From Desulfovibrio sp. (GTDB lineage: Bacteria > Desulfobacterota > Desulfovibrionia > Desulfovibrionales > Desulfovibrionaceae): DNA of 35,409 nt. The notes below the pieces were generated by a model that had not been told where the DNA came from, ran no database searches, and saw only the letters and a program-made list of their open reading frames with translations. Position 1 is the first letter of the stretch. Each line of letters opens with the position of its first letter. The stretch is taken from positions 1 to 35,409 of the forward strand of contig JAFTCE010000001.1 of the NCBI GenBank assembly GCA_017454855.1. The letters run 5' to 3'. Both the position numbers and the translations under genes were made by a program. Of this stretch, positions 7,797 to 24,905 are shown piece after piece.

Positions 7797-7944
7797 CCTC
7801 CCCCTTCGTGGGGAAAATGAGCTTGACGGATAGCGAAGCCGATGGCATCCTTTTCGTAACCCCTCCCTTGAGGGAGGGCCGCCCGGTTCCTTTTTCGCTG
7901 GCGGCGGAAGACGTCGGCGGTTGGAGCTGTCTGTGGATTGTAGT
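7797..7944 (+). repeat. Dispersed hairpin element, copy 1 (upstream of tatA)
   Basis: The element has two parts. The left half (7797-7870) holds a CCCC-TTCG-TGGGG hairpin, then TTGACGGA, GCGAAGCCGATG and CCTTTTC. It matches the left half of copy 2 at 12062-12137. A CCCTCCC-TTGA-GGGAGGG hairpin follows at about 7861-7878. The right half ends in a 32-nt unit at 7913-7944 that aligns without gaps to three other copies; this one is the most diverged (stem GTCGGC/GCTGTC, end GTGGATTGTAGT). The element lies in the 360-nt gap between the leftward STAS operon and tatA and ends 35 nt before the tatA ATG. No protein-coding gene is supported in this gap. Confidence 0.7.
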
Positions 7945-7978
7945 AAATAACATGTACGCCCCTAGGGAGGTTCCTTTC

Positions 7979-8188
7979 ATGTTCGGCGTCGGTATTCCCG
8001 AATTACTGGTTGTTCTTCTGGTTGTTCTCCTGGTTTTCGGCTACAAGAGGCTGCCCGAAATCGGCGGAGGCCTGGGCAGGGCCATACGCAATTTCCGTCG
8101 TGCGACTTCCGAACCGGACGAAATCGACATCACTGCGGAGGGGCAAAAACAAGCCTCGGCTGCGGGAGATGCAGGACGGAAAGTTTAA
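7979..8188 (+). CDS. tatA: Sec-independent translocase subunit TatA/TatE
   Basis: A 69-residue protein with one N-terminal membrane helix (residues about 5-20, [14 protein letters not shown]), the [20 protein letters not shown] hinge and amphipathic helix of TatA, and a short charged tail. TatA oligomers form the pore that moves folded, often cofactor-containing, proteins across the inner membrane after a twin-arginine signal. ATG 7979 is preceded by AGGGAGG at 8 nt. No tatB or tatC is nearby, so this is a stand-alone tatA gene. TatB is less likely because of the short tail. Confidence 0.93.
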
Positions 8189-8258
8189 ACAGTTGTGCAG
8201 CGATTCTCGACGTTGAACGTATGTGATTGTCCCATTACAGACAACCAAAGGATATGCC

Positions 8259-8690
8259 ATGAAAACGGAACAAATTTCAGTTTTTCTGGAAAACCGGGCG
8301 GGCCGACTGGCCGAAGTTACGCGCACACTGGCCCAGGCTGGCATCAATATCCGTGCATTATCCCTGGCAGATACGTCCGATTTTGGGATTCTGCGCATGA
8401 TTGTATGTGATCCCGAAAAAGCCAAGGCTGCACTCAAGGACAAGGGCTTTACCATTGGCAGAACCAGCGTCATTGCTGTGGAAGTGCCAGATCAGCCTGG
8501 AGGTCTGGATTCTGTCTTGCAGACCGTTTCTGAAAACGGCATTAATGTAGAGTACATGTATGCCCTTGTTCAGCGCGATCAGGACAGCGCCATCATGATT
8601 TTCCGTTTTGACAAGGCAGACAGGGCAGTGGAAGTGCTGCAAGCGCATAATTTCGTTATCATTCCTTCAGAACGCCTTTGCTCTATCTAG
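8259..8690 (+). CDS. Tandem ACT-domain protein
   Basis: The 143-residue protein consists of two ACT domains: residues about 4-68 (ISVFLENRAGRLAEVTRTLA, then GINIRALSLAD) and about 70-140 (VIAVEVPDQPGGLDSVLQTV, then GINVEYMYAL). ACT domains bind amino acids as small regulatory ligands. Stand-alone double-ACT proteins of this length are common in sulfate reducers and methanogens, where they often sit near aryl-CoA ligase and indolepyruvate oxidoreductase genes; those partners are absent here. The ATG at 8259 is chosen for its AAGGA site and because it starts just before the first beta strand; an upstream ATG at 8223 adds 12 unconserved residues. Confidence 0.88.
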   Translation: MKTEQISVFLENRAGRLAEVTRTLAQAGINIRALSLADTSDFGILRMIVCDPEKAKAALKDKGFTIGRTSVIAVEVPDQPGGLDSVLQTVSENGINVEYMYALVQRDQDSAIMIFRFDKADRAVEVLQAHNFVIIPSERLCSI

Positions 8691-8715
8691 GGTAAAAATG
8701 CCTTGCGTCTGCTGT

Positions 8716-8733
8716 GGGCGGGATGTCCCGCCC
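8716..8733. terminator. GC-rich hairpin between convergent genes
   Basis: GGGCGGGA-TG-TCCCGCCC forms an 8-bp perfect stem with a 2-nt centre (effectively a 4-nt loop). It lies 26 nt after the ACT gene stop and 5 nt after the RNase J stop, which converge here. There is no long T tract on either side, so it may be a bidirectional terminator or a 3'-end stabiliser. Confidence 0.55.
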
Positions 8734-8737
8734 ATGC

Positions 8738-10399
8738 TCACACTTCACTGATGACAGGTACAACTACGGGGTCTCTATCAAGAACGCTGCGGAAAAAGCG
8801 GCGCAGAGCAGAACGAATACCATCCTGCAAGCGACCGAGCTGTCCAGGCCGGATTGACTCAACTTCATCTAATACCAGGCATTTGGCATCTTCGAGCAAA
8901 TGACTGTACTGTTGGGCGAACACAAAGCCTTTGGAAAGCATCTCTGGGCCGTGCAGCACATTGCCTGTTTCCGAATCCAGCACCAGGACGACAATGACCA
9001 TGCCCTCATCGCCCAGGATACGCCGTTCCTTGAGGACAGCGTAGCCAACATCGCCTACGCCCTTGCCATCGACAAGGGTGCATTCGACGGGGACGCACGC
9101 CTCAAGCCGGAAGCTGTCCGGCAAAAGCGTTAAGGGCTGTCCGTCTTCGAGCAAAATACAGTTGCTAGCTGGCAGGCCGCAGTCCACAGCAAGGCGTCCG
9201 TGTTTGATCAAATGCTGATATTCCCCGTGTATAGGAACGAACATGTCGGGCCGCACGGCCAGGAGCATGTCACGCAATTCCTCGCGCTGTGCATGGCCTG
9301 AAGCGTGAATGGCATGGACGCTCTCATAGAGAACTTCGGCACCCAAGCGATACATTTCATTGATGAGTTTGGAGATGGTCTTGGCGTTGCCTGGGATCAT
9401 GCGCGAACTCATGACCACGGTATCGCCTTTGCGTATCTCCAATTGACGGTGTCCACCGTGAACCATGCGTGAAAGGGCTGAGAGCGGTTCTCCCTGCGCT
9501 CCGGTCACGAGCAAGACAATTTTGTCATCGGGCAGTTCTGGCACGCCGTTGTGGGCATTAAAAAACGAGGGCGGCAGTTTGGCAATGCCCAAATCACGCG
9601 CCATTTCTATGTTATTGGCCAGAGATTTGCCACTGATGACTACCGTGCGGTCATGTTCTTGGGCCAGATCGAAAACTTCCTGAATGCGCTGAATATGGCT
9701 GGAAAAGAGGGTAATGACAATGCGTCCTTGCGCGGAGAAGAAGATCTTTTCCAGAGACTCCTTCACCTCGCGTTCAGAGAGGGAACGGCCTTCGCGCATG
9801 ACATTTGTGGAATCGGAAAGCAGCAATCTGGCGCCTTCTGCTCCAGCGAAGTCCCGAAACAGAGCGAGGTCAGTCCCAGTCCCCCCCAAGGGATGGGGAT
9901 CAATCTTGAAATCTCCGCTGTGTACAACCTTGCCCACGGGAGTCTCAATACCGAGTCCAAACCCTTCCGGTATGGAATGACAGACAGGGAAAAAATGAAA
10001 GACAAGATCGCCCAGCGGCAACGTCGTTGTAGCATCTACGGGACATAGGTCTCCCCAGTCTTGAATTTCGCGCTCGCGCAATTTGTGTTCAACCAGAGCC
10101 AGCGTAAAGCGCGAGCCATAGATGCGCGTACCCTTGATTTCAGGTAATATCCATGGCAGTGCGCCAATGTGATCCTCGTGTCCATGCGTCAGCACAATGC
10201 CCAGCAGCTTGTCTTTGACGGCACTGACCGCGCCGAAATGCGGAATGACCACATCCACGCCCAAATGTTCATCGTCAGGGAACATCAGACCGCAATCAAT
10301 CATGACCACACCGCCTGCTGTCTCCCACAACTGGCAGTTGAGACCGATTTCTCCCAATCCTCCCAGGGGCGTAATGGTCAAAAATGGTTTGTCAAGCAT
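8738..10399 (-). CDS. rnj: Ribonuclease J
   Basis: A 553-residue metallo-beta-lactamase/beta-CASP nuclease. The zinc-site motif LTHGHEDHIGALPW is at residues about 73-86, with the further acid and histidine motifs in HSGDFKIDPHP (about 160-170) and a beta-CASP region with SSRMIPGNAKTI (about 330-341). The C-terminal histidine motif lies in HASGHAQREEL. RNase J has endonuclease and 5'-to-3' exonuclease activity in mRNA decay and RNA maturation. Length is typical of a single bacterial RNase J. The start codon at 10399 has no clear Shine-Dalgarno sequence, but the conserved N-terminus FLTITPLGGLGEIG begins right after it. It stands alone, converging with the ACT gene. Confidence 0.95.
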   Translation of the reverse strand: MLDKPFLTITPLGGLGEIGLNCQLWETAGGVVMIDCGLMFPDDEHLGVDVVIPHFGAVSAVKDKLLGIVLTHGHEDHIGALPWILPEIKGTRIYGSRFTLALVEHKLREREIQDWGDLCPVDATTTLPLGDLVFHFFPVCHSIPEGFGLGIETPVGKVVHSGDFKIDPHPLGGTGTDLALFRDFAGAEGARLLLSDSTNVMREGRSLSEREVKESLEKIFFSAQGRIVITLFSSHIQRIQEVFDLAQEHDRTVVISGKSLANNIEMARDLGIAKLPPSFFNAHNGVPELPDDKIVLLVTGAQGEPLSALSRMVHGGHRQLEIRKGDTVVMSSRMIPGNAKTISKLINEMYRLGAEVLYESVHAIHASGHAQREELRDMLLAVRPDMFVPIHGEYQHLIKHGRLAVDCGLPASNCILLEDGQPLTLLPDSFRLEACVPVECTLVDGKGVGDVGYAVLKERRILGDEGMVIVVLVLDSETGNVLHGPEMLSKGFVFAQQYSHLLEDAKCLVLDEVESIRPGQLGRLQDGIRSALRRFFRSVLDRDPVVVPVISEV

Positions 10400-10878
10400 C
10401 TGAACGCACCCGGTTATTCACAACATTCACATCAGTATTTCCTTGCTTCGTCTTGAGCTTTTGGCGAGAAGCGCACGCCATTACGCACATCATCGTCTGT
10501 TCCCGCGCCAAGCCATCAAGTGACGCAGCAAGAATACACTGAAACCTAGGCTATTGGCAACACAAATGGCAATGTAAGGACGTGCAGCAAGGCGGGAACT
10601 GAGAAATTGCCCACGAGGTATACCATTGGCCCGGAACCGTAAAATTTAGGAACGCATATGGCAGGAAAGGGAGCAATGCAAGACAAAAAAATGCCCTGTG
10701 TCTAAAAAAAATCTTGAAAGTTTGTGCCAGCCGTTGCATGCTTCGCTTTGACCGTACAGTATCATGTAACGCGGCTATCCTGGCCTAACAAGGTCGGTGC
10801 AAACTGTTTGCGCTGATCACTGCCATCCAAGGCAGGACAAGGGGATGTTCCTGCTGCCGCGCAGTTGTGGAGAATCTC
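10400..10878. other. Intergenic region between divergent rnj and tolQ
   Basis: This 479-nt stretch separates the divergent RNase J gene and the tol operon and must hold promoters for both. I see only weak candidates for the rightward promoter (TTGAAA at 10714-10719 with CATGCT after 17 nt; TTGACC at 10748-10753 without a good -10). Short ORFs here have neither start signals nor recognisable products. No RNA gene or repeat is evident. Confidence 0.5.
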
Positions 10879-11574
10879 ATGGAGTTCAGTTTTTTTTCAA
10901 TGATTGCCCAGGCAAGTCTGGTTGCCAAGGCCGTGCTTGCCTTTCTCCTTGTTATGTCCATTGTGAGCTGGGGGCTGATGATCCAGAAATTCATCGGTCT
11001 GAGCGCCGCCAACAGCAAAGCTGTGCGCGGAACGGAACGTTTCGAGAAAGCGCCCAATTTGCGTGACGCTGTGCAGTCACTGGGGGCCGATCCGACATCA
11101 CCCTTGTACTATATTGCCCATCAGGGCGTCGTGGAATTCAACCGCTCAAAAGAATTAGGTAACAGTAGCGACGTGGTGGTTGACAATGTGCGTCGCGCAC
11201 TGCGTCAAGGCGTCGGCACGGAGCTGGCACGTTTGCAAAGTTCCCTTTCCTTGCTGGCAACAACGGCCAACACCGCTCCCTTCATCGGCCTTTTTGGCAC
11301 AGTCTGGGGCATCATGAGTTCCTTTCACTCCATTGGTATGCTGAAAAGTGCCTCGTTAGCCACGGTAGCGCCGGGGATTTCCGAAGCTCTTGTAGCCACT
11401 GCCATTGGCCTGGCCGTGGCCGTGCCCGCCACAATAGGATTCAACGTCTTTATGGGAAAGCTCTCGCAGGTTGATACCCTGCTGGTGAATTTTGCTGGTG
11501 TGTTCTTGAATCGCGTTCAACGTGAACTCAACGCCCACCGGCCCGTACAGCGCATGGGCGCAACGGAGATATAG
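10879..11574 (+). CDS. tolQ: Tol-Pal system proton channel subunit TolQ
   Basis: The 231-residue inner membrane protein has three membrane helices of the TolQ/ExbB/MotA family: residues about 13-33, about 125-150 (TTANTAPFIGLFGTVWGIMSS) and about 165-190 (GISEALVATAIGLAVAVPA). With TolR it forms the proton-driven motor that energises TolA to keep the outer membrane attached during division. ATG 10879 is chosen over the GTG at 10867 because GGAG lies 6 nt before it. It is followed by tolR after 2 nt. The presence of tolA, tolB and pal downstream favours TolQ over ExbB. Confidence 0.93.
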   Translation: MEFSFFSMIAQASLVAKAVLAFLLVMSIVSWGLMIQKFIGLSAANSKAVRGTERFEKAPNLRDAVQSLGADPTSPLYYIAHQGVVEFNRSKELGNSSDVVVDNVRRALRQGVGTELARLQSSLSLLATTANTAPFIGLFGTVWGIMSSFHSIGMLKSASLATVAPGISEALVATAIGLAVAVPATIGFNVFMGKLSQVDTLLVNFAGVFLNRVQRELNAHRPVQRMGATEI

Positions 11575-11576
11575 GC

Positions 11577-12020
11577 ATGGGCGCAAGTCTCGGCGGTGGC
11601 AATAAATTTGTTTCGGAGATCAACGTCACGCCCTTTGTGGATGTGATGTTGGTTCTGCTAATCATTTTCATGGTGGCCACGCCCATGATGAGTCAGGGAC
11701 TGGATGTGGATCTGCCGCAAACCAAGCAAGTGGAAGTGCTGCCTACGGAAGCGGATCACATGGTCTTGACCGTGCGCAACGATGGCAAGATGTTCCTGGA
11801 CGAGTATGGCGTTGACAGCATGGAAGACCTTGAGGGCTATCTGCAGCGCTTGGTCAAGGAGAAGAACAAAACGCTCTTTCTCCAGGCCGATAAGGCTGTG
11901 CCCTATGGCATCGTGGTTGAAGTCATGGGCCACATCAAGGCCGTAGGCATCGAAAAACTTGGGGTCATTGCCGAACAGCCGGATGTCAGTGCCACGAGTC
12001 CCGCATCTGCCGGGAAATAA
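11577..12020 (+). CDS. tolR: Tol-Pal system subunit TolR
   Basis: A 147-residue TolR/ExbD protein with one N-terminal membrane helix (VDVMLVLLIIFMVATPMM, residues about 22-39), preceded by the family's SEINVTPFVDVML signature whose Asp in the membrane segment carries protons. The rest is a periplasmic domain ending with the conserved amphipathic region around PYGIVVEVMGHIKAVG. It starts 2 nt after tolQ. A 253-nt gap filled by a repeat element follows before tolA, which is unusual in a tol operon. Confidence 0.93.
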   Translation: MGASLGGGNKFVSEINVTPFVDVMLVLLIIFMVATPMMSQGLDVDLPQTKQVEVLPTEADHMVLTVRNDGKMFLDEYGVDSMEDLEGYLQRLVKEKNKTLFLQADKAVPYGIVVEVMGHIKAVGIEKLGVIAEQPDVSATSPASAGK

Positions 12021-12061
12021 CGACGGCAGGGATATTTTTTTCCAAAAATTCCTTATTTGAA

Positions 12062-12273
12062 ACCTCCCCCTTCAGGGGGAAAAATGTTATTGACGGACGG
12101 CGAAGCCGATGACACCCTTTTCACTAACCCCTTCCTTTTATCAGCCTGTTACGACGAAGAAAGTTACAGGCTGTTATGCAGAGTCTTCCTCTGCCAGTGA
12201 GAGGCAATCCGCACGGCTCCTATCCGCCGGTTGCGGAGTCAGTCGGCGGAAGGAACCGACTGTGGATTGAAAC
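12062..12273 (+). repeat. Dispersed hairpin element, copy 2 (between tolR and tolA)
   Basis: The largest copy. The left half 12062-12137 repeats copy 1: a CCCCC-TTCA-GGGGG hairpin, TTGACGGA, GCGAAGCCGATG, CCTTTTC and AACCCCT. An extra segment follows with its own inverted repeat (AGCCTGT at 12143-12149 and ACAGGCT at 12166-12172). The right half is a long imperfect inverted repeat, 12205-12229 against 12244-12269, with a 14-nt centre and about 24 possible pairs. The terminal 32-nt unit at 12242-12273 (stem GTCGG/CCGAC, end GTGGATTGAAAC) stops one base before the tolA ATG. The element fills nearly the whole tolR-tolA gap. Confidence 0.8.
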
Positions 12274-13308
12274 ATGCGTCTTGCATCCTATATTCTGTCT
12301 TTCTGTCTGCATTTTGCAGTTTTCCTGCTGATTTGGTTCTGGCCGCAGAGGACTCCTGTCAGACTGGATACGCCGCCCGTCATGATTAGCCTGGTAGACG
12401 GCGCAACCGGCGGCAGTAGGACGCCTTCGCCCATTCTCGGTCATATGGGAGAGACGGGCGAAGGGCCAAAGGCGCCCACGCCGCCGGCGCCCAGAGCGGA
12501 AGTAGCCGCACCGGAACGCATGGAGATCAAGGAACCCAAACCCGTGCAGCCGCAACAGCGCAGGGAAACGCCCGTCGTACGCAAGCCCGAACCCAAGCCA
12601 GAACCCAAGCCAAAACCAGAACCCAAGCCAGAACCCAAACCAGAAGTAAAACCAGAGCCAAAGCCGGAACCAAAACCGAAGCCCAAGGAAGACGCCAAGC
12701 CTGTGGCAGCCAAGAAGGAACCCAAGAAGGAAGCCAAGAAGGAAGCCAAGAAGGAAGCGCCGCCCAAGGAGACTGCCCAAAACCAAAGGAAGCCTGAAGC
12801 GCCAAAGCCATCCCCGAAGGCTGACAAGCCCACGCAAGGCAAGGCCGCTGACGACCCTGTGGCCGCAGCCTTGCAACAAGCACGGCGCAAGGCATCATCG
12901 CGTGCTGAAGCCGGGGACAGGGGCAATGCCGTGGAGCAGGCGCTGGCCCAAGCCAGACGCAATGCAAGCGGCAATAGAGGCGGCGGCGGCGGAGAAGGAG
13001 AAGGCCCAGGCGGCGGCGGACTGGGCGATGTCTACATGGGTCAGGTCATGCTGGCCGTCCGTCCCAATTGGGGGTTTGCCTCCTCGGGACGGCGCAATCT
13101 GCGCTGTGTTGTCAATGTCAAGGTCGATGCCCACGGTCAGGTACAGCAGACGCAGGTCACCCGCAGTTCCGGCAATGCCCAGTTTGACGCCTCAGCTGTC
13201 AATGCCATTGTCCGCACGAGCCAAAGTGGCAACTTCCCGCCGCCGCCTTCTGCAGCCTATGGGGATTTGGATTTGGTATTCACCTTAGACGAAATGATGG
13301 GACGCTGA
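12274..13308 (+). CDS. tolA: TolA/TonB-family energy transducer of the Tol system
   Basis: The 344-residue protein has an N-terminal membrane anchor (residues about 5-24), a long periplasmic spacer rich in Lys, Pro, Glu and Ala (about 65-240) and a C-terminal TolA/TonB-type domain (about 250-344, with LRCVVNVKVDAHGQVQ and SGNAQFDASAVNAI). TolA links the TolQR motor to TolB-Pal at the outer membrane. Family assignment to TolA rather than TonB rests on operon position. The spacer mixes a Lys-Pro/Glu-Pro repeat typical of TonB with a KKEAKKEA helix-like part typical of TolA. The Shine-Dalgarno sequence is weak: GTGGAT of the abutting repeat element, 7 nt before the ATG. Confidence 0.88.
   Translation: MRLASYILSFCLHFAVFLLIWFWPQRTPVRLDTPPVMISLVDGATGGSRTPSPILGHMGETGEGPKAPTPPAPRAEVAAPERMEIKEPKPVQPQQRRETPVVRKPEPKPEPKPKPEPKPEPKPEVKPEPKPEPKPKPKEDAKPVAAKKEPKKEAKKEAKKEAPPKETAQNQRKPEAPKPSPKADKPTQGKAADDPVAAALQQARRKASSRAEAGDRGNAVEQALAQARRNASGNRGGGGGEGEGPGGGGLGDVYMGQVMLAVRPNWGFASSGRRNLRCVVNVKVDAHGQVQQTQVTRSSGNAQFDASAVNAIVRTSQSGNFPPPPSAAYGDLDLVFTLDEMMGR
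12583..12687 (+). repeat. Short tandem repeat coding for the KPEP spacer of TolA
   Basis: Imperfect repeats of the 12-nt unit CCAGAACCCAAG and 6-nt variants encode residues 104-138, an alternating Lys-Pro-Glu-Pro run. Such spacers are extended and rigid in TonB proteins. The DNA repetition makes length change by slippage likely between strains. Confidence 0.8.
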
Positions 13309-13341
13309 AGTGCATCTTTCCCTGTTCGACAACATCTGCTT

Positions 13342-14427
13342 ATGATGGGGGCATGTATGCCTGTTTACACGCAAGCACGGCTTGCCCTGCGACGTATGTC
13401 TGTCGGACTGATCCTGGTGATCATGACCTGCTTTTTGTACTCGCAGGGGCATGCCGCGACCATTGTCGGAGCAAGCCTGGACGGGAAGTATGCGGCAAAG
13501 GTCGTGGCTGCCGTCATCGACGCCTGGACGCCGCCCCCGGCTCTCAAAAATGATTTCACTGTCTGCGTCCAAATGACCATCGATGAGAATGGAAGGGTGG
13601 CAGCCTGTAATATCCTTTCTTCTTCAGGACTTGAGGCTTTTGATACTGCTGCTTGCGGTGCAGTGAAAAAATCAGGACCGTTTGGAACGCCGCCCTATGC
13701 CCAACCCGTGGATATATACATGACGTTTTGGAATGGCGTCCCCAAGGGCAGGGAGACAGGCATGCTTCTGGACAGCGACGCGGCCATGCGTGCGGAAATC
13801 CTGTCCCGAACTCGGGCCAATGCAGCGCGGGGCGAACAGCACGCCACCGCTGTGGAAAATCTGGCGCGTCTGCGCGCCGAAGCCGCAGCCAGAGACAGTG
13901 GCAAGGACTTGCCGACAATACGCCCGAAAAGTCCACCGATACCTCCTGCCAAACCCAAGCCAGCAAGCGCTCCAAGGCGCTTGCGACCGACGTTTGCTAC
14001 GGAGGACGCGCAGCATGCCCAGGCGAGCCAGCACATAGGGAGTACGCAAAAACCTGCTCCAAAGCCGATAAACGCCAGCCCCAAGGTTCAGGGAACCAAG
14101 CCCGTCACGGCGTCCAGTTCAGAACGCACTGCGGCCCAGGGGCAAAAGGGAGATGCCTTGACTGCCTACCGCAACGAGGCAGAGGCGCGCTTGCGCAAAG
14201 TAGTTGTCATTCCGGCCCAAACTGCGCCTGGCTCGTATACGGCACGCTTGCGGCTGCATATGGCTCCTAACGGAACTATTGCCCGCTTCTCCACGCTGTC
14301 ATCGTCGGGCAATATATATCTTGACAAAGCCATACGCTCGGGCATACGCCGCTTGGGCAGACTGCCGCCACCGCCAGAGGCCGCCAAAGGCATCGTGGAT
14401 ATTGCGCTCACCCTGACGCGTCACTAG
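13342..14427 (+). CDS. Periplasmic protein with two TolA/TonB C-terminal-like domains
   Basis: The 361-residue product has a signal-like N-terminus (residues about 17-39, RRMSVGLILVIMTCFLYSQGH, probable cleavage after GHA). One TonB-C/TolA-C-like domain lies at about 48-130 (FTVCVQMTIDENGRVAACNI, GLEAFDTAACGAVKK). A charged Ala/Pro/Lys linker of about 140 residues follows, then a second such domain at about 273-361 (YTARLRLHMAPNGTIARFST, NIYLDKAIRSGIRRLG). The two domains share the pattern of two strands around an N-G turn, SSSG, and a helix beginning with a DKA/DTA-like motif. Two starts are possible: ATG 13342, or ATG 13357 with GGGG 6 nt before it, which I find slightly more likely. The gene lies between tolA and tolB, 33 nt after tolA. 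It lacks a membrane anchor of its own if the signal is cleaved. Function unknown; a TolB- or Pal-binding accessory is an inference. Confidence 0.7.
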   Translation: MMGACMPVYTQARLALRRMSVGLILVIMTCFLYSQGHAATIVGASLDGKYAAKVVAAVIDAWTPPPALKNDFTVCVQMTIDENGRVAACNILSSSGLEAFDTAACGAVKKSGPFGTPPYAQPVDIYMTFWNGVPKGRETGMLLDSDAAMRAEILSRTRANAARGEQHATAVENLARLRAEAAARDSGKDLPTIRPKSPPIPPAKPKPASAPRRLRPTFATEDAQHAQASQHIGSTQKPAPKPINASPKVQGTKPVTASSSERTAAQGQKGDALTAYRNEAEARLRKVVVIPAQTAPGSYTARLRLHMAPNGTIARFSTLSSSGNIYLDKAIRSGIRRLGRLPPPPEAAKGIVDIALTLTRH

Positions 14428-16605: not shown

Positions 16606-16698
16606 GCTCCAAAAGAGCAGGAGGCATGCCTAGACAAGTAAAAGGCTTGACACACAGGCCAGAGGGGAAGAGGATAGCCCAAGGACACGCCTTCAAGT

Positions 16699-16765
16699 GT
16701 TGCAATCCACAGTCGGCTTCATCCGCCGACTGACTCCGCTGTCGGCAGACAGGAGTCGTGCGCAC
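16699..16765 (-). repeat. Dispersed hairpin element, copy 3 (right half only)
   Basis: On the minus strand the 32-nt unit spans 16730 to 16699 (stem CAGTCGGC/GCCGACTG with a 7-nt loop, end GTGGATTGCAAC), an 8-bp perfect stem, the best of the four copies. The bases before it (16731-16765) align to the left arm of the inverted repeat in copy 2 (shared CGCACG, CTCCT, GCCG and GCGGAGTCAGTCGGCGGA). The left half with TTGACGGA is missing. The copy lies in the 204-nt gap between the pal terminator and the downstream dehydrogenase gene, antisense to both. Confidence 0.75.
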
Positions 16766-16808
16766 TGGCCTTCACTGTATGGGGATGTTTCCAACGAAGG
16801 AATTTCCG

Positions 16809-17774
16809 ATGAAAATTGCCATACTCGACGGTGCTGTGTTGAACCCTGGAGATGTGGACTGGTCTCCTATTACCATGCTTGGCGAGACAGTCATTCATCC
16901 CGTGACTTCGTCCACCGAATTGGCCGAGCATGCTGCCGGGGCCGACGTCGTCCTCACCAATAAAACGCCCCTGACCAGCTCCTGCCTCGATATCCTGCCT
17001 TCCATGCGCGTCGTCTGCGTCCTCGCTACAGGCTACAATATTGTGGATATTGATGCCCTGGCCAAACGCAACATTCCTGTATGCAATGTCGTTGCCTACG
17101 GCGTCAGTGACGTGGCGCAACACGCCATGGCCCTATTGTTGGAATTAAGTCGACATACGAGCTTGCATACCCAATCCGTAAAAGAGGGAGAATGGCAGGC
17201 CAACGGAAGCTGGTGTTATTGGAAGTCGTCTCCTGTTTGCCTTGAAGGCATGACTCTGGGTCTGGTGGGCTTTGGCGCCATTGGACGCCGCATGGGCGAG
17301 CTGGGGCATGCCTTTGGTATGAACGTGCTGGCTTGCTGCCGTACGCCGAAAGATCCTCCGGCCTACAGTCCTTTTGCCTTTGTCTCCCTGTCGCACCTGC
17401 TGGAAACAGCCGACGTCATTTCGTTGCATTGCCCGCTCACTGCGGCAACACGCCACTGCATCAACGCGCAAAGTCTGGCCACGGTTCGCCGCGGCACCAT
17501 TTTGCTCAATACGGCCCGCGGTGATCTGATCGATGAAGCTGCAGTCGCTGCTGCCCTGCGTTCAGGACAGCTGGCAGGGCTTGGCACTGACGTACTCAGT
17601 TCCGAACCCCCCAGTGCGGACAATCCTCTTCTCACCGCCCCCAACACACTGATTACGCCGCACATTGCCTGGGCAACTACAAGGGCGCGGCAAAACATCA
17701 TCAACCTTACGGCGGAGAATATCCGCCGCTGGCAGGCAGGGACGCCCATCAACGTGGTCAATGGCGTCAAGTAG
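16809..17774 (+). CDS. D-2-hydroxyacid dehydrogenase (glycerate dehydrogenase/hydroxypyruvate reductase-like)
   Basis: The 321-residue NAD(P)-dependent enzyme has the full set of family motifs: GLVGFGAIGRRMG nucleotide-binding loop (G154, G156, G159), NTARGDLID with catalytic Arg237, Glu266 in SSEPP and His285 in ITPHIAWAT. The substrate-side segment TGYNIVDIDALAKR and YGVSDVAQHAMALLLEL is closest to glycerate dehydrogenase/hydroxypyruvate reductase, but related 2-oxoacid reductases are possible. The ATG at 16809 follows AAGGA at 7 nt; an in-frame upstream ATG at 16758 adds 17 unlikely residues. The downstream amidohydrolase starts 20 nt later. Confidence 0.88.
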   Translation: MKIAILDGAVLNPGDVDWSPITMLGETVIHPVTSSTELAEHAAGADVVLTNKTPLTSSCLDILPSMRVVCVLATGYNIVDIDALAKRNIPVCNVVAYGVSDVAQHAMALLLELSRHTSLHTQSVKEGEWQANGSWCYWKSSPVCLEGMTLGLVGFGAIGRRMGELGHAFGMNVLACCRTPKDPPAYSPFAFVSLSHLLETADVISLHCPLTAATRHCINAQSLATVRRGTILLNTARGDLIDEAAVAAALRSGQLAGLGTDVLSSEPPSADNPLLTAPNTLITPHIAWATTRARQNIINLTAENIRRWQAGTPINVVNGVK

Positions 17775-17794
17775 AATTTTCGGCTCAGTGTTAC

Positions 17795-18678: not shown

Positions 18679-18684
18679 ATAGCC

Positions 18685-18766
18685 AAGCCGGACGGCGGCG
18701 ACACTGCCAACCCCGTCAGGTCCGAAAGGAAGCAGCGGCAACAGACGTTGTCGGGTGTCCGGCCCA
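18685..18766 (+). ncRNA. ffs: Signal recognition particle 4.5S RNA (small bacterial type)
   Basis: The terminal stem GCCGGAC (18687-18693) pairs with GTCCGGC (18757-18763). The apical domain holds the diagnostic Ffh-binding sequence GTCAGGTCCGAAAGGAAGCA, with a GNRA tetraloop (GAAA) and the asymmetric and symmetric internal loops on either side. The RNA binds Ffh and targets nascent membrane proteins to FtsY. It has its own promoter and terminator. Confidence 0.95.
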
Positions 18767-18767
18767 C

Positions 18768-18801
18768 AAAAAGCCGTAACGGTTTTCCGTTGCGGCTTTT
18801 T
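18768..18801 (+). terminator. Rho-independent terminator of the SRP RNA
   Basis: AAAAAGCCGTAACGG and CCGTTGCGGCTTTTT form a nearly perfect 15-bp stem with a TTTT loop, ending in a T run, directly after the SRP RNA. Confidence 0.9.
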
Positions 18802-18895: not shown

Positions 18896-19579
18896 ATGAT
18901 GCCTGCAGCAGCGCCGCTCTATCCTATTTTTCTGTCTTTGCAGGGATTGACCTGCGTTGTGGTGGGGTTTGGGCGCGTGGGACAACGCAAATTGGTTGGG
19001 CTGCTTGACTGCGCTCCGGCTGCCGTGTTGGTTTTGGATATCGTCGATCCAAGTCCTGAAGCTGCCAGGCTGTTGCGAGACCCGCGGACGCGTTTTGTCC
19101 GTCGCGCATTGGCCCCTTGCGATCTGCGCGACTGCGCCTTGGTTTTTGCCACAACCAACGATGCCGCTGAAAATGCGCGCATTGCCGCGCTCTGTGCAGA
19201 GCATGGCGTTCTGTGCAACAGCGCTACAAGTCAGGGGAATGTTCTGCTTCCGGCAGTGGCGCGTTGCGGTACAATGGCAGCAGCCCTGTCTACGGGTGGA
19301 TCCAGCCCGGCCCTTGCCCGACGTTGGAAGACTGACCTGGAACGCTGGCTTGCGCCACGCGCACGCATGGCCTCCTTCATGGGGCGTTTGCGACCTCTGG
19401 TGCTTGGCCTGAACCTCTCCTCGGAATGCAATGCAGATTTGTTTCGGACAATAGCGGCATCACCGTTGCAAGATTTGTTGGAAACAGGCGACCGAGATGC
19501 CAGTAGCCGCCTGCTACAAGGCATATTGCCAACGGTTTTGCATACTAAACTCGCGGAGTTGCTCGATGATCTCCCCTGA
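18896..19579 (+). CDS. Precorrin-2 dehydrogenase / sirohydrochlorin ferrochelatase domain protein
   Basis: The 227-residue protein matches the N-terminal half of siroheme synthase (CysG-N/Met8p/SirC): VVVGFGRVGQRKL nucleotide-binding loop at about 17-29, VFATTNDAAENARIA at about 84-98, and ALSTGGSSPALARRWK at about 126-141. It oxidises precorrin-2 to sirohydrochlorin with NAD and may insert iron. Sulfate reducers need siroheme for dissimilatory sulfite reductase and also make heme through siroheme. The methyltransferase half of CysG is absent, so the work is split between genes. ATG 18896 is chosen because GGAGG lies 8 nt before it. It overlaps the next gene by 14 nt. Confidence 0.88.
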   Translation: MMPAAAPLYPIFLSLQGLTCVVVGFGRVGQRKLVGLLDCAPAAVLVLDIVDPSPEAARLLRDPRTRFVRRALAPCDLRDCALVFATTNDAAENARIAALCAEHGVLCNSATSQGNVLLPAVARCGTMAAALSTGGSSPALARRWKTDLERWLAPRARMASFMGRLRPLVLGLNLSSECNADLFRTIAASPLQDLLETGDRDASSRLLQGILPTVLHTKLAELLDDLP

Positions 19580-20393
19580 ATTTTCCACCGGGCTCACGCT
19601 TGTACTCTATAGTCTGGCCCTCGGCACAGGATTTGCGGGTCTGCTGGCCCGTCAACCTGCGTGGAGAAAATGCGGTTGCGTCCTAGCCGTTACAGCTTTC
19701 GCCTGCCAGACGCTGACCCTTGCCCTAGGCTTTCATAAGGCCCTGCCCGACGGCTTGAGCGTTGGAGCCTATTTTCAGCTTATGGCCTGGTTTGTTGTCC
19801 TCTGCGGAAGCATCGCCTGGGCAAAAATGCGGCAGGAATCCACATTGATTTTCGCCGCTCTGCTGGGATGCCTGCTGTTTCTCTTGTCCACCCCCTATCT
19901 TACCTCCGTGGTACGGGTGCCGACATTTCTTTCCAAGCCATTTTACGCGCTACACATCGGCGCGCTCTTCTTGAGCTTGGCGCTTCTGGCTATGGCCTTT
20001 GCCGCCGGTGGAATCTTCCTCTTCCTCGAAAGCCGCATCAAGAGCAAACGCAGCGTCAAGGGCTTCTGGAAGGATATGCCAGCGCTGTCCCTGCTGGATA
20101 AGGTCAATGCCTTCACCGTGCTGACTGGCTATCCCCTGTACACGTTGGGCATCTTTTCCGGCATTGTTTGGGCGAAGCCTGCCTTTGGCGCTTTTATGAC
20201 GGGCGATCCCAAGGAAGTCCTCAGCATCATCATCTGGTTGCTCTTTTCTCTGCTTTTTTATAACCGTCTTACACGGAATTGGAAGGGAAGAAAGCCGGCG
20301 CAATGCGCCGTAGGCATCTTCTTTCTCTGCCTTTTTTCCATCCTCGTGGTGAATACCTTGATGCCTTCGCATCATGCCTTCGTCAGAAATTGA
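19566..20393 (+). CDS. HemX/CcsA-type membrane protein (cytochrome c assembly family)
   Basis: The 275-residue integral membrane protein has about eight helices and the conserved CcsA-family segments, including VPTFLSKPFYALHIGALFLSLA and GYPLYTLGIFSGIVWAKPAF with conserved histidine and tryptophan. Homologues next to hemA are called HemX and are thought to affect HemA level or heme handling; others export heme for c-type cytochromes. Gene order here (siroheme dehydrogenase, this gene, hemA) supports HemX. The tryptophan-rich WWD motif of full CcsA is not obvious. Start at 19566 has GGAG at 7 nt; an earlier in-frame start adds 23 unlikely residues. Confidence 0.85.
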   Translation: MISPEFSTGLTLVLYSLALGTGFAGLLARQPAWRKCGCVLAVTAFACQTLTLALGFHKALPDGLSVGAYFQLMAWFVVLCGSIAWAKMRQESTLIFAALLGCLLFLLSTPYLTSVVRVPTFLSKPFYALHIGALFLSLALLAMAFAAGGIFLFLESRIKSKRSVKGFWKDMPALSLLDKVNAFTVLTGYPLYTLGIFSGIVWAKPAFGAFMTGDPKEVLSIIIWLLFSLLFYNRLTRNWKGRKPAQCAVGIFFLCLFSILVVNTLMPSHHAFVRN

Positions 20394-20406
20394 TCGAGCT
20401 GCTGTC

Positions 20407-21696
20407 ATGGATTCTGATATTGTACTTGTGGGTCTCAACCACCGCACTGCGGGCGTGGACATCCGTGAACGCTTCGCCCTGACCGAATACTGCGACCCGG
20501 AGCGCTGGGCCTTGCCTTGCACTGACGCTATACGCGAAAGCGTGATTCTCTCCACATGCAACCGTGTTGAATTGCTGGCCGCAGGGAAAGGAGACTTGGA
20601 AGAGCAGATGCTGCGCGACTGGGCCCATGTGCGTCATGCCACTCCCTCGGAATTGGCCCCTTATGTGTATATTTACAAAAATCAAGAAGCAGTGCGGCAT
20701 CTTTTTTCCGTAGCTTCAAGCCTGGACTCCATGGTCGTCGGCGAACCGCAAATCCTCGGTCAGCTCAAGGCAGCTTACCGCAAAGCCGTCAGTAACCACA
20801 GCACAGGAGCCATCCTCAACCGTCTGCTGCACAAGGCGTTTTCCGTGGCAAAGCGTGTGCGCACGGAGACCTCCGTGGCCTCCAGCGCTGTTTCCATCAG
20901 CTATGCTGCTGTTGCTTTGGCCAAGCGTATCTTTGGAGACATGCAAGCCCACAAGGCCATGCTTGCCGGTGCAGGCGAAATGGCCGAACTGGCCGCCAGA
21001 CATCTCTTGCAGGCTGGAATCTCGGAAATTCTGGTTGCCAATCGTACCCTTGCCCGCGGCGAAGCATTGGCGCGGCAATTTTCCGGTCGGGCCATTCCCT
21101 TTGAAACCATGACCCATCACCTGGCGGAAGTGGACATTGTCATCACGTCCACTGCCGCACAAGAATCCATTATCAGGGCCAGTGACATTCGCGCTGTGTT
21201 GAAAATGCGCAAAAATCGGCCCATGTTCTTCATTGACATTGCCGTGCCGCGTAACGTTGATCCCGACGTCAACGGGCTGGACAATGTCTATCTGTACGAT
21301 ATTGACGACCTCCGGGAAGTGGTTGAGGAAAATATGGCTGTTCGTCGCGATGAGGCCGCAAAGGCCAGAGAAATCGTCAGCGAGGAAGTTCAGCATTTTT
21401 CCACCTGGCTTGCCGATCTGGACGTGCAGCCCACGATAGTGGATCTCATTCAACGCGGCGAATCCTTGGCCCAGAAGGAACTTGAAAAGACGTTGAAACG
21501 TCTCGGCCCTGTAGACTCAGGAACTCGCGCTGCCCTGGAGGCGATGGTGGAGGCATTGATCCATAAGTTCAACCACGCACCTCTCATGTTTCTCAAAAAC
21601 GGCGGAATGGCCCAGGAGGGCAATGCGCAACGCATCAGCCTTGTGCGACGTATCTTCGATTTGGACGCATCCTGTAGCCACAGTGAGGGACAATGA
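20407..21696 (+). CDS. hemA: Glutamyl-tRNA reductase HemA
   Basis: The 429-residue enzyme reduces glutamyl-tRNA to glutamate-1-semialdehyde, the first step of tetrapyrrole synthesis. It shows VGLNHRTAGVDIRE at residues about 8-21, the catalytic Cys51 in STCNRVE, MVVGEPQILGQLKAAY, the NADPH-binding GAGEMAELAARHL and a C-terminal dimerisation helix with LIHKFNHAPLM. The ATG at 20407 gives the usual N-terminus; an upstream ATG at 20374 would add 11 residues and overlap the HemX-like gene by 20 nt. Neither has a strong ribosome binding site, which suggests translational coupling. Confidence 0.95.
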   Translation: MDSDIVLVGLNHRTAGVDIRERFALTEYCDPERWALPCTDAIRESVILSTCNRVELLAAGKGDLEEQMLRDWAHVRHATPSELAPYVYIYKNQEAVRHLFSVASSLDSMVVGEPQILGQLKAAYRKAVSNHSTGAILNRLLHKAFSVAKRVRTETSVASSAVSISYAAVALAKRIFGDMQAHKAMLAGAGEMAELAARHLLQAGISEILVANRTLARGEALARQFSGRAIPFETMTHHLAEVDIVITSTAAQESIIRASDIRAVLKMRKNRPMFFIDIAVPRNVDPDVNGLDNVYLYDIDDLREVVEENMAVRRDEAAKAREIVSEEVQHFSTWLADLDVQPTIVDLIQRGESLAQKELEKTLKRLGPVDSGTRAALEAMVEALIHKFNHAPLMFLKNGGMAQEGNAQRISLVRRIFDLDASCSHSEGQ

Positions 21697-22034
21697 TGCG
21701 TTGGTATGGCATTGATGACATCACGCATGGCGACATGGCCACGTTCACAGCTACGCTCAAGGACATGGGGCTGGAGTCCGGTCTCGATGGACTTTTCTGG
21801 CTGCCCGTGCCCGCTAATATGCTCTCCGCCATCCAGACAAAGCACAAGGAAAGCTGCGGACCCCATGTCATGGGCCTGGAAGTAGAAGAAAACTCCCTCA
21901 GGCTCGAACTTCTGGTTCGTGCCCGAGGACGCCTGCGCTGCGATTGCATAGGCTATGCAAGTACCGAGTTGAGAAACCACATGATTGGCTGGCTGGAAAA
22001 TTTGCTCAGGGAACTGCGTATCGACGCGGTTTGA
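21693..22034 (+). CDS. Small conserved-looking protein between hemA and tilS, function unknown
   Basis: A 113-residue soluble protein with no signal or membrane segment that I do not recognise. Notable features are an N-terminal MRWYGIDD, a hydrophobic centre (GLFWLPVP) and three cysteines, two of them close together (RCDCIGYA). The C-terminal helix is amphipathic. Its start overlaps the hemA stop (ATGATG over TGA), so it is translated with hemA. The tilS gene starts 24 nt later. Coding status is supported by the tight packing and lack of competing frames. Confidence 0.7.
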   Translation: MMRWYGIDDITHGDMATFTATLKDMGLESGLDGLFWLPVPANMLSAIQTKHKESCGPHVMGLEVEENSLRLELLVRARGRLRCDCIGYASTELRNHMIGWLENLLRELRIDAV

Positions 22035-22058
22035 ACTCGGAACCTGTGCCAACAGAGC

Positions 22059-23114
22059 ATGCCGCTAAGCCTGCCACGACGTTTTTCTCGACCGACGCTG
22101 CGCCTCTTACGCACGGTCGAGCTTTTTTGCCGCGAACATCTGGCCTTGCAGCCAGGGACGCACCTCTTGCTGGCCGTTTCCGGAGGGGCGGACTCCAGTG
22201 CGCTGGCCGTGATCCTGCACCTGCTTGCGCCACGGCTTGGGTTGATCCTGCATGCGGCGAGCATCAATCACGGTCTGCGTGCAGAAGCCGCAGACGATGC
22301 GGCCTTTGCCCGTGATCTCTGCTGCGGCCTAGGCATTCCCTGCAAGATTTGTGTAACCGATGCCGGACGTTACGCCGATGAAAAGCGCGTAGGGATTGAG
22401 GAAGCCTGCCGCCTTTTGCGCTATAGCCTTCTGGAAAAAGAACGCCAAGCCTGCGGCGCCGATGGCATTGCCCTGGGCCATCACGTCGGCGATCTCAGCG
22501 AAGACGTGTTGCTGCGTCTGGTTCGTGGCACGGGCTGGCCAGCTCTGGGGGGCATGGCGGCCCGCGATGACGCACGTCACCTTCTGCGTCCGCTGCTTGC
22601 TGTCAAAACTGAAGCTTTGCGTACGCTGCTGGTGGAATGCGGTATTGCCTGGCGTGAGGACAGCAGCAATGCGGATCAGCGCTTTACGCGCAATCGCTTC
22701 CGCCATAGGATTTTGCCTCTGCTGCGGAATGAAAATCCCTCCCTGGAACGATCACTGTTCCACCTTTGGCATTTGGCCCGTCTGGACGAAGCCTTTTGGG
22801 AACGTAGACTGGACAACCTTCTGGCCGCTACACCCTGGCGCAAGGACGCCTTGGGTATTGAATTGCCTGCCGTTCTTCTCCGTGACTTGCCGCCAGCCGC
22901 CCGCTTGCGCGTCTATATGCGGGCCATACATGCTCTACAGCAGGACAAGGAAGGCGGACATACCCCCTGCGGGCAGGCGCGTGCCGATGCCTTGCTGGCT
23001 CTGGACACAGCCTTGAGCCAAGGACGCGGCAACACATGTTTTCAACTTCCAGGACGTTTGGAAGCCCGCATCGTCAAAGGTGCCATCCTCTTTCGTCGCA
23101 CAGCAGAAAGGTAG
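22059..23114 (+). CDS. tilS: tRNA(Ile)-lysidine synthase TilS
   Basis: The 351-residue protein has the PP-loop ATP-pyrophosphatase motif AVSGGADSSAL (residues 39-49), INHGLR at about 69-74, a GHHVGD motif in GIALGHHVGDLSEDVLLRL, and REDSSNADQRFTRNRFRH at about 200-217, diagnostic of TilS. It converts C34 of the CAU anticodon of tRNA-Ile2 to lysidine, so that it reads AUA. The usual long C-terminal domain is short here. A CAU tRNA lies 87 nt downstream. Confidence 0.93.
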   Translation: MPLSLPRRFSRPTLRLLRTVELFCREHLALQPGTHLLLAVSGGADSSALAVILHLLAPRLGLILHAASINHGLRAEAADDAAFARDLCCGLGIPCKICVTDAGRYADEKRVGIEEACRLLRYSLLEKERQACGADGIALGHHVGDLSEDVLLRLVRGTGWPALGGMAARDDARHLLRPLLAVKTEALRTLLVECGIAWREDSSNADQRFTRNRFRHRILPLLRNENPSLERSLFHLWHLARLDEAFWERRLDNLLAATPWRKDALGIELPAVLLRDLPPAARLRVYMRAIHALQQDKEGGHTPCGQARADALLALDTALSQGRGNTCFQLPGRLEARIVKGAILFRRTAER

Positions 23115-23164
23115 AGCAGAAACGCAGGTACCTTTTTCCCCTGCCAAAAAGTGCATCGGGCATC

Positions 23165-23193
23165 TTGACCGCACTCGGTCTTGTCTGTATATT
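23165..23193 (+). promoter_or_regulatory. Promoter of the tRNA gene
   Basis: TTGACC (23165-23170) and TATATT (23188-23193) are separated by 17 nt, and the expected start falls 7-9 nt later, at or just before the tRNA 5' end at 23202. The tRNA therefore does not depend on the tilS transcript. Confidence 0.78.
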
Positions 23194-23201
23194 TTGGGAA
23201 T

Positions 23202-23277
23202 GGGCCCATAGCTCAGTTGGTAGAGCCTCCGGCTCATAACCGGCAGGTCCCAGGTTCGAGTCCTGGTGGGCCCACCA
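23202..23277 (+). tRNA. tRNA with CAU anticodon (tRNA-Ile2 or elongator tRNA-Met)
   Basis: A 76-nt cloverleaf including an encoded CCA: acceptor GGGCCCA/TGGGCCC, D arm GCTC-AGTTGGTA-GAGC, anticodon arm with loop CTCATAA, variable loop AGGTC, T arm CCAGG-TTCGAGT-CCTGG. The anticodon stem has one T-C mismatch at its first pair (27-43). Acceptor pairs C4-G69 and C5-G68 are those used by TilS to recognise tRNA-Ile2 in E. coli, whereas E. coli elongator tRNA-Met has U-A and A-U there. With tilS next door, tRNA-Ile2 is favoured. An initiator tRNA is unlikely because the first acceptor pair is matched and the anticodon stem lacks three G-C pairs. Confidence 0.93.
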
Positions 23278-23302
23278 GAGGAGACTTCATCAATGTCCGT
23301 CT

Positions 23303-23332
23303 AGGTTCGCAAAGCCTTGGCGGATTTTTTTT
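23303..23332 (+). terminator. Terminator after the tRNA
   Basis: TTCGC (23306-23310) and GCGGA (23320-23324) form a short stem followed by eight T. An alternative longer stem pairs AGGTTCGC (23303-23310) with GCGAACCT (23336-23343). It lies 30-55 nt after the tRNA. Confidence 0.6.
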
Positions 23333-23429
23333 ATGGCGAACCTTGCGTCGATGTGATGTAATCTTGAATGCTAAGGTATTTTTTCGATACATTAGGGAAA
23401 AGTAAAAAATACGAATGTTATTTATTTGT

Positions 23430-23578
23430 TAACGTGTTATTGACGATATCCTCCGCTGGGGGAACTTCCAAGCGAAAACCGAGCGCATATCCCCTTGGGC
23501 CGTCTCGTTGAAGCAGGGATCGGCCAAGGGGAGCTTTTCTCCCGCTAGGAATCCCCCGCCTTTAGGCGGGGGAGACCA
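23430..23578 (+). mobile_element. Probable 3'-end remnant of an IS200/IS605-type (tnpB) element
   Basis: The stretch ends in a strong hairpin, TCCCCCGCC-TTTA-GGCGGGGGA (23552-23573), preceded by a smaller GGGGAGC-TTTT-CTCCC hairpin (23528-23545). In frame it translates VSLKQGSAKG and ARNPPPLGGGDH, similar to the tail and right-end region of many OrfB/TnpB elements, where such GC-rich hairpins form the transposon end. There is no transposase ORF. The hairpin could also end argD transcription on the other strand, 31 nt after its stop. The rest of 23333-23603 shows no gene; it is AT-rich at 23350-23440. Confidence 0.4.
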
Positions 23579-23603
23579 CAAAAGAACATCAGGAAGCTGG
23601 CTC

Positions 23604-24812
23604 CTAGATTCCACTGTCTGTCCGCAGTATGTCTTCAAGTGTCGCCGCAAAGGCGGTGAGGTCGTCTTCGTCAATGGTCAGCGGCGGCAGCAGGCGCAAG
23701 GTGACATCGTGGCTCAAGTTACAGATATAGCCGCGTTCAAGAAGTTCCATCCAAACAGGCCGACCGGGAATGGCCAGCTCAATACCCAGCATCAGGCCCA
23801 GGCCGCGTACCTCGCGTATTTTGTTCGGCAAGCGGGCCTGCATGGCGCAGAGACGCTCCTTGAGTCGACCGCCCAATTCTTCGGCGCGCTGGGCCAACTT
23901 GTCGCGGAGCATGATTTCCACTACCTTGGCAGCCACAGCCGAAACGAGCGCGCCGCCGCCAAATGTCGTGGCATGGCTGCCTAGGGCAAAGCCCTGAGCT
24001 ACCTCGTTCGTGGCCAGCATGGCCCCCATGGGCAGGCCATTGGCCAGGGATTTGGCCGTGCTGATGATGTCGGGAGTCAGTCCGTAATTCTGGAAGGCCC
24101 AGAATTTGCCGCTGCGGCAGAAACCAGCCTGCACTTCGTCGCAGATGAAGAGAACGCCGCGTTGGCGGCACAGCGCTTCCACTTGGCGTAGCCAGTCCCC
24201 GGACAGGGGAACGACGCCGCCCTCGCCCTGCACGACTTCTACCAGCACGGCGGCTGTGGCCGGAGTGATGGCCGCTTCCAGCGCGGCAAGGTTCTCGCTG
24301 GGCACGTGCCGGAAGCCTTCGGGCAGGGGGGTGAAGCCATCGCTCAGGTTCTCACGGCCCGTGGCAGCCAGGGTAGCCAAGGTGCGACCGTGGAAACACC
24401 CGTCCAGGCTGATGATTTCCCAGGCATCGCGTTGCGCGACCTTGCGCATGTAACGCCGGGCCAGTTTGATGGCGGCCTCGTTGGCCTCTGCCCCGGAATT
24501 GCAAAAAAACGCCTTGCCGTGGTGCGTTGTGGACAGCAGCAAGCGTGCCAGTTCCACTTGTGGCTCCTGATAGAAGAGATTGCTCACATGCCAGAGACCT
24601 TGGGCCTGCTCCACGAGCGCGGCGCAGACTTCATCGTTGCAGTGGCCGAGGGCCGTCACGGCAATGCCTGCCAGTAAATCCACATATTCCTTGCCGTTGA
24701 CATCCCAAAGACGCGCCCCCTTGCCGCGCACAATGGCCAATGGGTAGCGGGCATAGGTTCGGCAAAGCAATTGCTCTTCTTGCGCTTTCATGGCATCAAA
24801 AGCCTTTGACAT
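23604..24812 (-). CDS. argD: Acetylornithine aminotransferase (class III)
   Basis: The 402-residue PLP-dependent enzyme has class III motifs: FCNSGAEANEAAIKLAR at residues about 103-119, SLDGCFHGRTLATLAATG at about 135-152, VQGEGGV at 194-200, ICDEVQAGF with Asp225 and STAKSLANGLPMGA with the PLP lysine at 254. This is the pattern of ArgD, which makes N-acetylornithine in arginine synthesis and often also serves in lysine synthesis; related ornithine or succinylornithine aminotransferases are less likely. The ATG at 24812 has GGAG about 6 nt before it; an upstream in-frame ATG at 24842 lies inside the repeat element. No other arg gene is nearby. Confidence 0.9.
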   Translation of the reverse strand: MSKAFDAMKAQEEQLLCRTYARYPLAIVRGKGARLWDVNGKEYVDLLAGIAVTALGHCNDEVCAALVEQAQGLWHVSNLFYQEPQVELARLLLSTTHHGKAFFCNSGAEANEAAIKLARRYMRKVAQRDAWEIISLDGCFHGRTLATLAATGRENLSDGFTPLPEGFRHVPSENLAALEAAITPATAAVLVEVVQGEGGVVPLSGDWLRQVEALCRQRGVLFICDEVQAGFCRSGKFWAFQNYGLTPDIISTAKSLANGLPMGAMLATNEVAQGFALGSHATTFGGGALVSAVAAKVVEIMLRDKLAQRAEELGGRLKERLCAMQARLPNKIREVRGLGLMLGIELAIPGRPVWMELLERGYICNLSHDVTLRLLPPLTIDEDDLTAFAATLEDILRTDSGI

Positions 24813-24835
24813 GGCAAACTCCTCGATCTTGCAAT

Positions 24836-24905
24836 GTTTCAATCCAGAGTCGGCTCCGTCCGCCGACCGTCAAGCACATGTCCCTCCTAGAGGTGGAGGT
24901 CTCGC
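24836..24905 (-). repeat. Dispersed hairpin element, copy 4 (upstream of argD)
   Basis: On the minus strand a CCTCC...GGAGG hairpin and ATGTGCTTGACGG correspond to the left half of copy 1 (CCTCC hairpin, ATGAGCTTGACGG). They are joined directly to the 32-nt unit at 24867-24836 (stem GTCGGC/GCCGAC, end CTGGATTGAAAC). It looks like an internally deleted element. It ends 23 nt before the argD ATG, in argD orientation. The remaining 24906-25222 shows no supported gene. Confidence 0.72.

Follow-up and report, generated by a model that had tools for sequence, protein, structure and literature searches.

Classic DDE-type miniature inverted-repeat transposable elements (MITEs), such as Correia, RUP and ERIC, are small, gene-less, intergenic and multi-copy. 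Hairpin-ended non-autonomous mobile elements are likewise a known kind of bacterial repeat, and the best point of comparison for the family described here is formed by the ends-only elements of IS200/IS605 insertion sequences (IS), the palindrome-associated transposable elements (PATEs). The PATE-like element described in Halanaerobium (PMC7290912), for example, has no coding region and two different ends with subterminal hairpins, inserts 3' of a short target and is presumed to be mobilised in trans. Here we analyse 35,409 nucleotides of Desulfovibrio sp. DNA (assembly GCA_017454855.1, contig JAFTCE010000001.1, positions 1 to 35,409, forward strand; the whole stretch is called the window), which holds four copies of a repeat that resembles PATEs in all of these respects. 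We propose that this repeat is probably a genus-restricted, non-autonomous mobile element with hairpins at its ends, inserted at a TTNAT target and mobilised in trans. What sets it apart is that it often inserts at start codons while bringing a leader of its own, and that its right end looks like a repeat of a CRISPR (clustered regularly interspaced short palindromic repeats) array.

A preliminary description, made from the window alone, had reported four intergenic copies of a dispersed hairpin element. Reading and searching these stretches confirmed the copies, which all sit between predicted genes (Table 1), and BLAST with copies 1 and 2 together with end models gave many more copies across the genome, so that the dispersal goes far beyond chance. 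In the genome to which the window belongs (G000, hereafter the own genome; 2.95 Mb in 174 contigs), copy 1 as query found 32 places, the best non-self one with an E-value of 2.2e-23, and with copy 2 there were 64 matches at E<=0.1. From these copies and those of relatives we built models of the left and right ends, which matched the own genome at 47 left ends and 61 right ends; 47 elements were extracted with their flanks and then aligned. Merging the BLAST places with the left ends and 55 of the 61 right ends yields about 79 dispersed loci on 49 contigs. Both ends are present at 27 of them, a right end only at 28 and a left end only at 20, the weakest of which are possibly false; the other 4 were found by BLAST alone. 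A sixth copy is matched at 98-99% identity, over 140-185 bp, by five others of the own genome that lie at unrelated loci, and four contigs terminate inside element copies.

Among the genomes sampled, the family was found only in the genus Desulfovibrio. BLAST had matches in 10 of the 24 other Desulfovibrio genomes and in none of the 16 genomes from other genera, and the end models detected left ends in 15 and right ends in 18 of 79 genomes of the genus, the own genome included. An exact internal element pattern matched two contigs of rumen Desulfovibrio metagenome-assembled genomes, one of them with the element copy that contig C22 of G015 carries. In viral contigs there were 12 right-tip matches, one of which is a true copy (L172, see below), and two other element patterns had no match there; a search of a phage collection gave no match either. 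Two plasmid records were returned, one with a solo right end in pRGI00788, a 2.9-kb uncultured plasmid (L179 314-352), the other from Polaromonas. We found no published description of the family in a literature search that covered subscription journals thinly.

The consensus, read in the plus orientation, starts after the target TTCAT with CAAAAATTCCTTTGTGGTTTGAAAC and the hairpin TCCCCC-TTTA-GGGGGA, continues with the block TTGACGGACGGCGAAGCCGATGGCATCC and the hairpin CCCCTTCCTTCAGGGAGGGG, and closes with a long hairpin ending in AGTCGGCGGATGGRGCCGACT, followed by GTGGATTGAAAC-AT. As to the guide tetranucleotide that IS200/IS605-derived elements have 5' of each hairpin foot to match their cleavage sites, the GAA before the left hairpin is, by eye, complementary to TTC. 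The preliminary description had drawn the left limit of the family too far in: the left end is (TTCAT)CAAAAATTCCTTWGTGGTTTGAAAC, which precedes the CCTCCCCC hairpin. The two ends are asymmetric: they have the direct repeat GTGGWTTGAAAC in common and are not inverted repeats of each other. Length varies between these common ends. Among 35 end pairs lying 60-500 bp apart, 22 measure 173-179 bp and 5 measure 226-232 bp, the extremes being 112 and 419 bp; long forms have one extra hairpin of about 55 bp, short forms are without the middle part, and the 298- and 419-bp forms of G087 are longer in the interior.

Table 1. Coordinates of element copies, element parts and adjoining genes; positions are those of the window except in the last line.
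Feature	Position	Strand	Description
Copy 1	7776..7946	+	Standard form; decayed left tip; hairpins and right end present
Copy 2	12040..12275	+	Long form with extra hairpin of ~55 bp; between tolR-like and tolA-like genes
Copy 3	16697..16811	-	Right end 16697-16772; decayed left end reaches CAT 16809-16811
Copy 4	24834..24926	-	Internal deletion: left hairpin fused to right-end hairpin
32-nt right terminal unit of copy 2	12242..12273	+	Hairpin plus GTGGATTGAAAC; resembles type I-C CRISPR repeat
Conserved internal block of copy 2	12090..12117	+	Consensus TTGACGGACGGCGAAGCCGATGGCATCC; short palindrome inside; promoter-like by eye, not called in a scan of another copy
tolA-like gene (TonB C-terminal domain)	12274..13308	+	Start codon is the copy 2 insertion point
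tolR-like gene	11577-12020		Flanks copy 2 on the left
Interrupted copy in G087	L239 1175-2300 = G087 C1 805175-806300		Element copy interrupted by IS4/5-family transposase gene with broken frames

Within the window, copy 1 is matched by the end models at 7776-7819 (left, E 0.003) and 7870-7946 (right, E 3.9e-7). Copy 3 had been taken for a right module only, which does not hold: a decayed left end, read from the sequence and absent from the listed left-end model matches, abuts the start codon (CAT, 16809-16811) of a D-2-hydroxyacid dehydrogenase gene on the plus strand. Copy 4 is internally deleted, as described before, and precedes an argD-like gene for a class-III aminotransferase (23604-24812, minus strand).

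Of the two natures that the preliminary description had considered, the evidence supports that of a non-autonomous mobile repeat: there are orthologous sites without the element, copies at unrelated loci are nearly identical, the insertion boundary is sharp, and one copy lies in a phage tail operon. Empty sites, the search for which had been suggested there, were found in relatives at tolR-tolA, at leuA and in the pair G066/G073. The tolR-tolA spacer measures 18 bp in relatives G052, G076 and G015 versus 253 bp in the window, where the element extends up to the ATG; none of the 8 relatives compared has an element at this place, and the protein of relatives aligns from residue 1 at the tolA-like ATG 12274. 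At leuA, the ATG of the 7 relatives compared, among 9 searched, follows directly on an ordinary leader, while in the own genome a whole element stands before the gene and AAGGAATTATTG, perhaps the former leuA leader, lies beyond it. Just past the right end at leuA (L057, beyond 6249), CAATAATTCCTTACG looks like a left end, possibly that of an older insertion at the same site. At leuB, the element is present in none of nine relatives over the 120 nt compared. A third site has a 121-bp copy in G066 and reads uninterrupted (...GCTCAT/GCTGG...) in G073, the flanks being 87% and 81% identical. The empty sites hold one CAT.

Same-site copies in G066, G073 and G087 show further differences in their interior, in one case by a nested IS4/5-family transposase: the G066 copy (L257) occupies the same site as G087 805175-806300 and is without this insertion. 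A further copy sits in the IMG/VR contig IMGVR_UViG_3300010163_002591 (L172 5259-5442), at the start codon of a Pfam Phage_tail_X gene that neighbours a tape-measure-like open reading frame. A search for related phage sites for an empty-site comparison returned only the same contig and one weak match.

What does the element recognise? In 67 left flanks, which include a few doubtful matches and count some sites of sister genomes twice, the five positions preceding the element read, in order, T in 57, T in 61, C in 53, A in 61 and T in 57 flanks. The target is thus TTNAT, with C, T or G at N and mostly TTCAT, and the element is inserted 3' of it. On the other side, no position beyond GAAAC-AT rises above 0.03 bits in 87 right flanks, a set that has the same impurities and some chance viral matches besides. 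IS200/IS605 elements show such a one-sided target preference (PMC6006769). A target duplication, the other suggested check, could at most be short: nothing longer than the 2-bp AT is seen to be duplicated, and this AT may be a true duplication or the element's own tip.

The target has a direct consequence for position, since TTCAT reads ATGAA when taken from the complementary strand. The CAT is present in 38 of the 49 left flanks that are at least 400 bp long, and from 26 of these 38 an outward frame of at least 60 codons runs in frame with it (frame 0), as compared with 0 and 13 for the other two frames at the same junctions (Fisher p 9e-8). The genes concerned include leuA and leuB (Pfam) and the phage tail X gene. 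On the right side, ATG is present in 21 of 73 flanks and is open for at least 60 codons in 7 of these 21 (versus 2 and 5 for the remaining two frames), the tolA-like gene being one of the 7; there, in copy 2, the AT of the right tip and the next G form the start codon, 12274-12276. Because the target complements ATGAA, many surviving insertions lie exactly at start codons, and we attribute this position mostly to the target, together with the disappearance of insertions that fall inside genes, where 287 of 358 control TTCAT sites lie.

Read outward, the left end gives AAGGAATTTTTG-ATG, the CTT of CCTT being at least 90% conserved, and the AAGGA that the element brings may act as a ribosome-binding site. 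We envision that a transposase supplied in trans would move the element to a site immediately 3' of TTNAT. The gene on the left gains a Shine-Dalgarno-like sequence (AAGGAATTTTTG) that stands 7 nt from the ATG, itself unchanged, and the leader it had before is displaced beyond the element. In the opposite orientation, the right tip restores AT before a flanking G and an ATG is rebuilt, as at tolA. At its other end, the copy upstream of leuB reaches into a gene: its right end, which is decayed (L057, about 2563-2700), contributes the final codons and the stop of a leuD-like frame (...SKHVTVHSG, then stop), and its left end precedes leuB. If the ends keep an ATG and a Shine-Dalgarno-like sequence in place, insertion before housekeeping genes such as leuA, leuB and tolA is possible without silencing them. 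Spread of the element would then rewire translation initiation and operon spacing, and tolerated insertion would explain how a compact genome comes to hold tens of copies of a gene-less repeat.

So many copies directly before start codons could also suggest a cis-regulatory structured RNA, a leader of riboswitch-like type conserved before a set of genes, which was the second nature that had been considered. Folding one copy does give hairpins at both ends (TCCCCC-GGGGGA on the left, and those of the right end); the right part folds strongly (z = -7.9), and of two alternative structures for the right end, one has its pairs in 92.7% of cells and the other in 87.9%. We nevertheless hold such an RNA to be very improbable and did not find this part of the preliminary description borne out. 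Gene orientation is mixed, the gene downstream of the right end being on the same strand at 26 and on the opposite strand at 20 of 46 loci (as placed by a crude gene caller), and the orthologous genes of relatives are without the element. Base-pair covariation in the element ends was not above that of shuffles, and an Rfam scan of the element returned no family at the gathering threshold, only weak sub-threshold matches, one of which, to a CRISPR repeat family, scored 17.5 bits versus the 45 needed. A promoter scan of another copy called one weak site, in the left end; TTGACG-17-CATCCT, spotted by eye as an internal promoter, was not the site called and is a suggestion only. Elsewhere in the window, Rfam matches were a small signal recognition particle RNA and a tRNA, at 18684-18769 and 23202-23274.

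To explain how a gene-less unit moves, we favour a single-strand, HUH/Y1-like transposition in trans, because the element has hairpins at both ends, asymmetric ends, a one-sided short target and no inverted repeats. As the preliminary description stated, no transposase of the family is seen in the window, whose open reading frames were listed and in part searched against family libraries. The wider transposase search was confined to Y1, and to part of the Y1 matches; in the own genome it found a single Y1 fragment, at a contig start.

Several results weigh against the trans-mobilised element that we propose. None of 30 Y1 loci from a longer match list has element ends, nor has any of 15 further loci, including copies in G087, where there are 36 Y1 matches, and the element-bearing genomes G005, G015, G020, G064 and G073 have no Y1 match at all. 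The G087 copy at 806300-805175, tried as a parent, proved to carry the nested IS4/5-family transposase that the same-site G066 copy does without. At the boundary, AT stands on both sides in 25 of 35 end pairs and the sides differ in the other 10; the left junction at tolA now reads TTTTTTTCC, which is not TTCAT and which we take to be its decayed form. The hairpins lack the covariation support mentioned above. Finally, the excess of start codons over non-coding TTCAT sites at the same loci is weak (11/17 versus 31/71, p = 0.098), too weak to establish a preference for start codons beyond that for the target. Since no transposase with these ends was found, membership in the IS200/IS605 type (as PATEs) is unproven, and we say only that the element works like one.

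Two other candidate parents were also rejected. The 423-bp copy of G087 has only extra repeats inside, and G062 C20 14266-15038 (773 bp; L240 1271-2042) has no transposase by eye. The ends of the latter bracket about 640 bp of other DNA, which may be captured DNA or may mean that there are two separate fragments.

The Y1 fragment in the own genome, the many copies of a short intergenic hairpin repeat and the GTGG motifs near both ends would all fit repeats of the REP/BIME type, moved by a RAYT (TnpA-REP) transposase. We find this quite improbable, since the alignments, read by eye, do not place GTGG at the hairpin's 5' foot, where the definition of REPs puts it (PMC6006769), and since what moves is one asymmetric element that has a target of its own, and not a REP pair.

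A different kind of partner is suggested by the right end. On contig C106 (L310 1-8169), the own genome has a type I-C operon, with cas3, cas5c, cas8c, cas7, cas4 and cas1 by NCBIfam and a 96-aa open reading frame that is cas2-like by eye; its array, cut by the contig start, has the repeat GTCGCGCCCCACGCGGGCGCGTGGATTGAAAC. The last 32 nt of the element, GTCGGCGGATGGGGCCGACTGTGGATTGAAAC, equal this repeat in length, share its first 4 and last 12 nt and are identical to it at 18 of 32 positions, and a hairpin-plus-tail fold occurs at the matching place in both. The exact match of 12 terminal nt is unlikely to be due to chance, but it was noticed after the fact. The target TTCAT, for its part, begins with TTC, an experimentally confirmed type I-C protospacer-adjacent motif (PAM) in Xanthomonas (PMC8406640), and the filled site (GAAAC/AT plus flank) relates to the empty one ((T)TC/AT plus flank) with the geometry of repeat/spacer to PAM/protospacer. 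The element might then be CRISPR-linked, its right end mimicking the type I-C repeat of the host and its insertion at TTC(AT) reflecting Cas proteins. Either Cas4-Cas1-Cas2 would join the repeat-like end to PAM-processed DNA, or Cas5c would process a transcript to a crRNA-like or inhibitory RNA.

We consider such a link unlikely. Identity to the repeat is only 18/32, the hairpin sequence does not track the repeat of each species, and in the folded copy the tail of the full right end can pair with the upstream CAATCC; the single weak promoter called lies in the left end. Moreover, G087, which is one contig, has 8 left and 8 right ends and no match to the array pattern, a point softened by the at least five G087 element sites that are common to G066 and so may be old. 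Slightly more doubtful still is the full version, in which the right end is a working repeat mimic, the target a PAM-marked site and insertion a joining of the repeat end such as occurs in spacer acquisition. If it were true, and if transcripts of the element ran through the right end and were cut by Cas5c, the flank would serve as the spacer, its perfect PAM-bearing match would be the empty allele, and the filled site would be protected, its PAM being gone. The likeness of the right end and the PAM-like target make a connection between MITEs and CRISPR-Cas directly testable.

Returning to the trans-mobilised element that we favour, its place among known systems can be drawn from both its shared and its private features. 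Unlike DDE-type MITEs, it lacks terminal inverted repeats and shows no clear target duplication, and has the direct repeat GTGGWTTGAAAC instead. With REP/BIME repeats and with REPINs and their RAYTs it shares intergenic hairpin repeats in many copies, but its ends are asymmetric, its insertion unit is precise and GT[AG]G is absent from the foot of its hairpins. Another parallel is offered by solitary repeat units and RNA anti-CRISPRs (Racr; PMC10651486), where a single hairpin that resembles a CRISPR repeat is carried on mobile DNA and the host has a CRISPR system of the corresponding type; in our case the 18/32 identity falls below the 90% threshold of SRUFinder given in that source. Unlike Racr, moreover, the element is chromosomal, has tens of copies and uses the repeat-like part as an end of the mobile unit itself. 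Nearest of all are the PATEs. A partner IS with these ends was not found for our family, which differs from PATEs further in a target, TTCAT, that puts the element on start codons, in a left end that is Shine-Dalgarno-like in the outward direction, in a right end resembling a CRISPR repeat, and in a high copy number with a modular interior.

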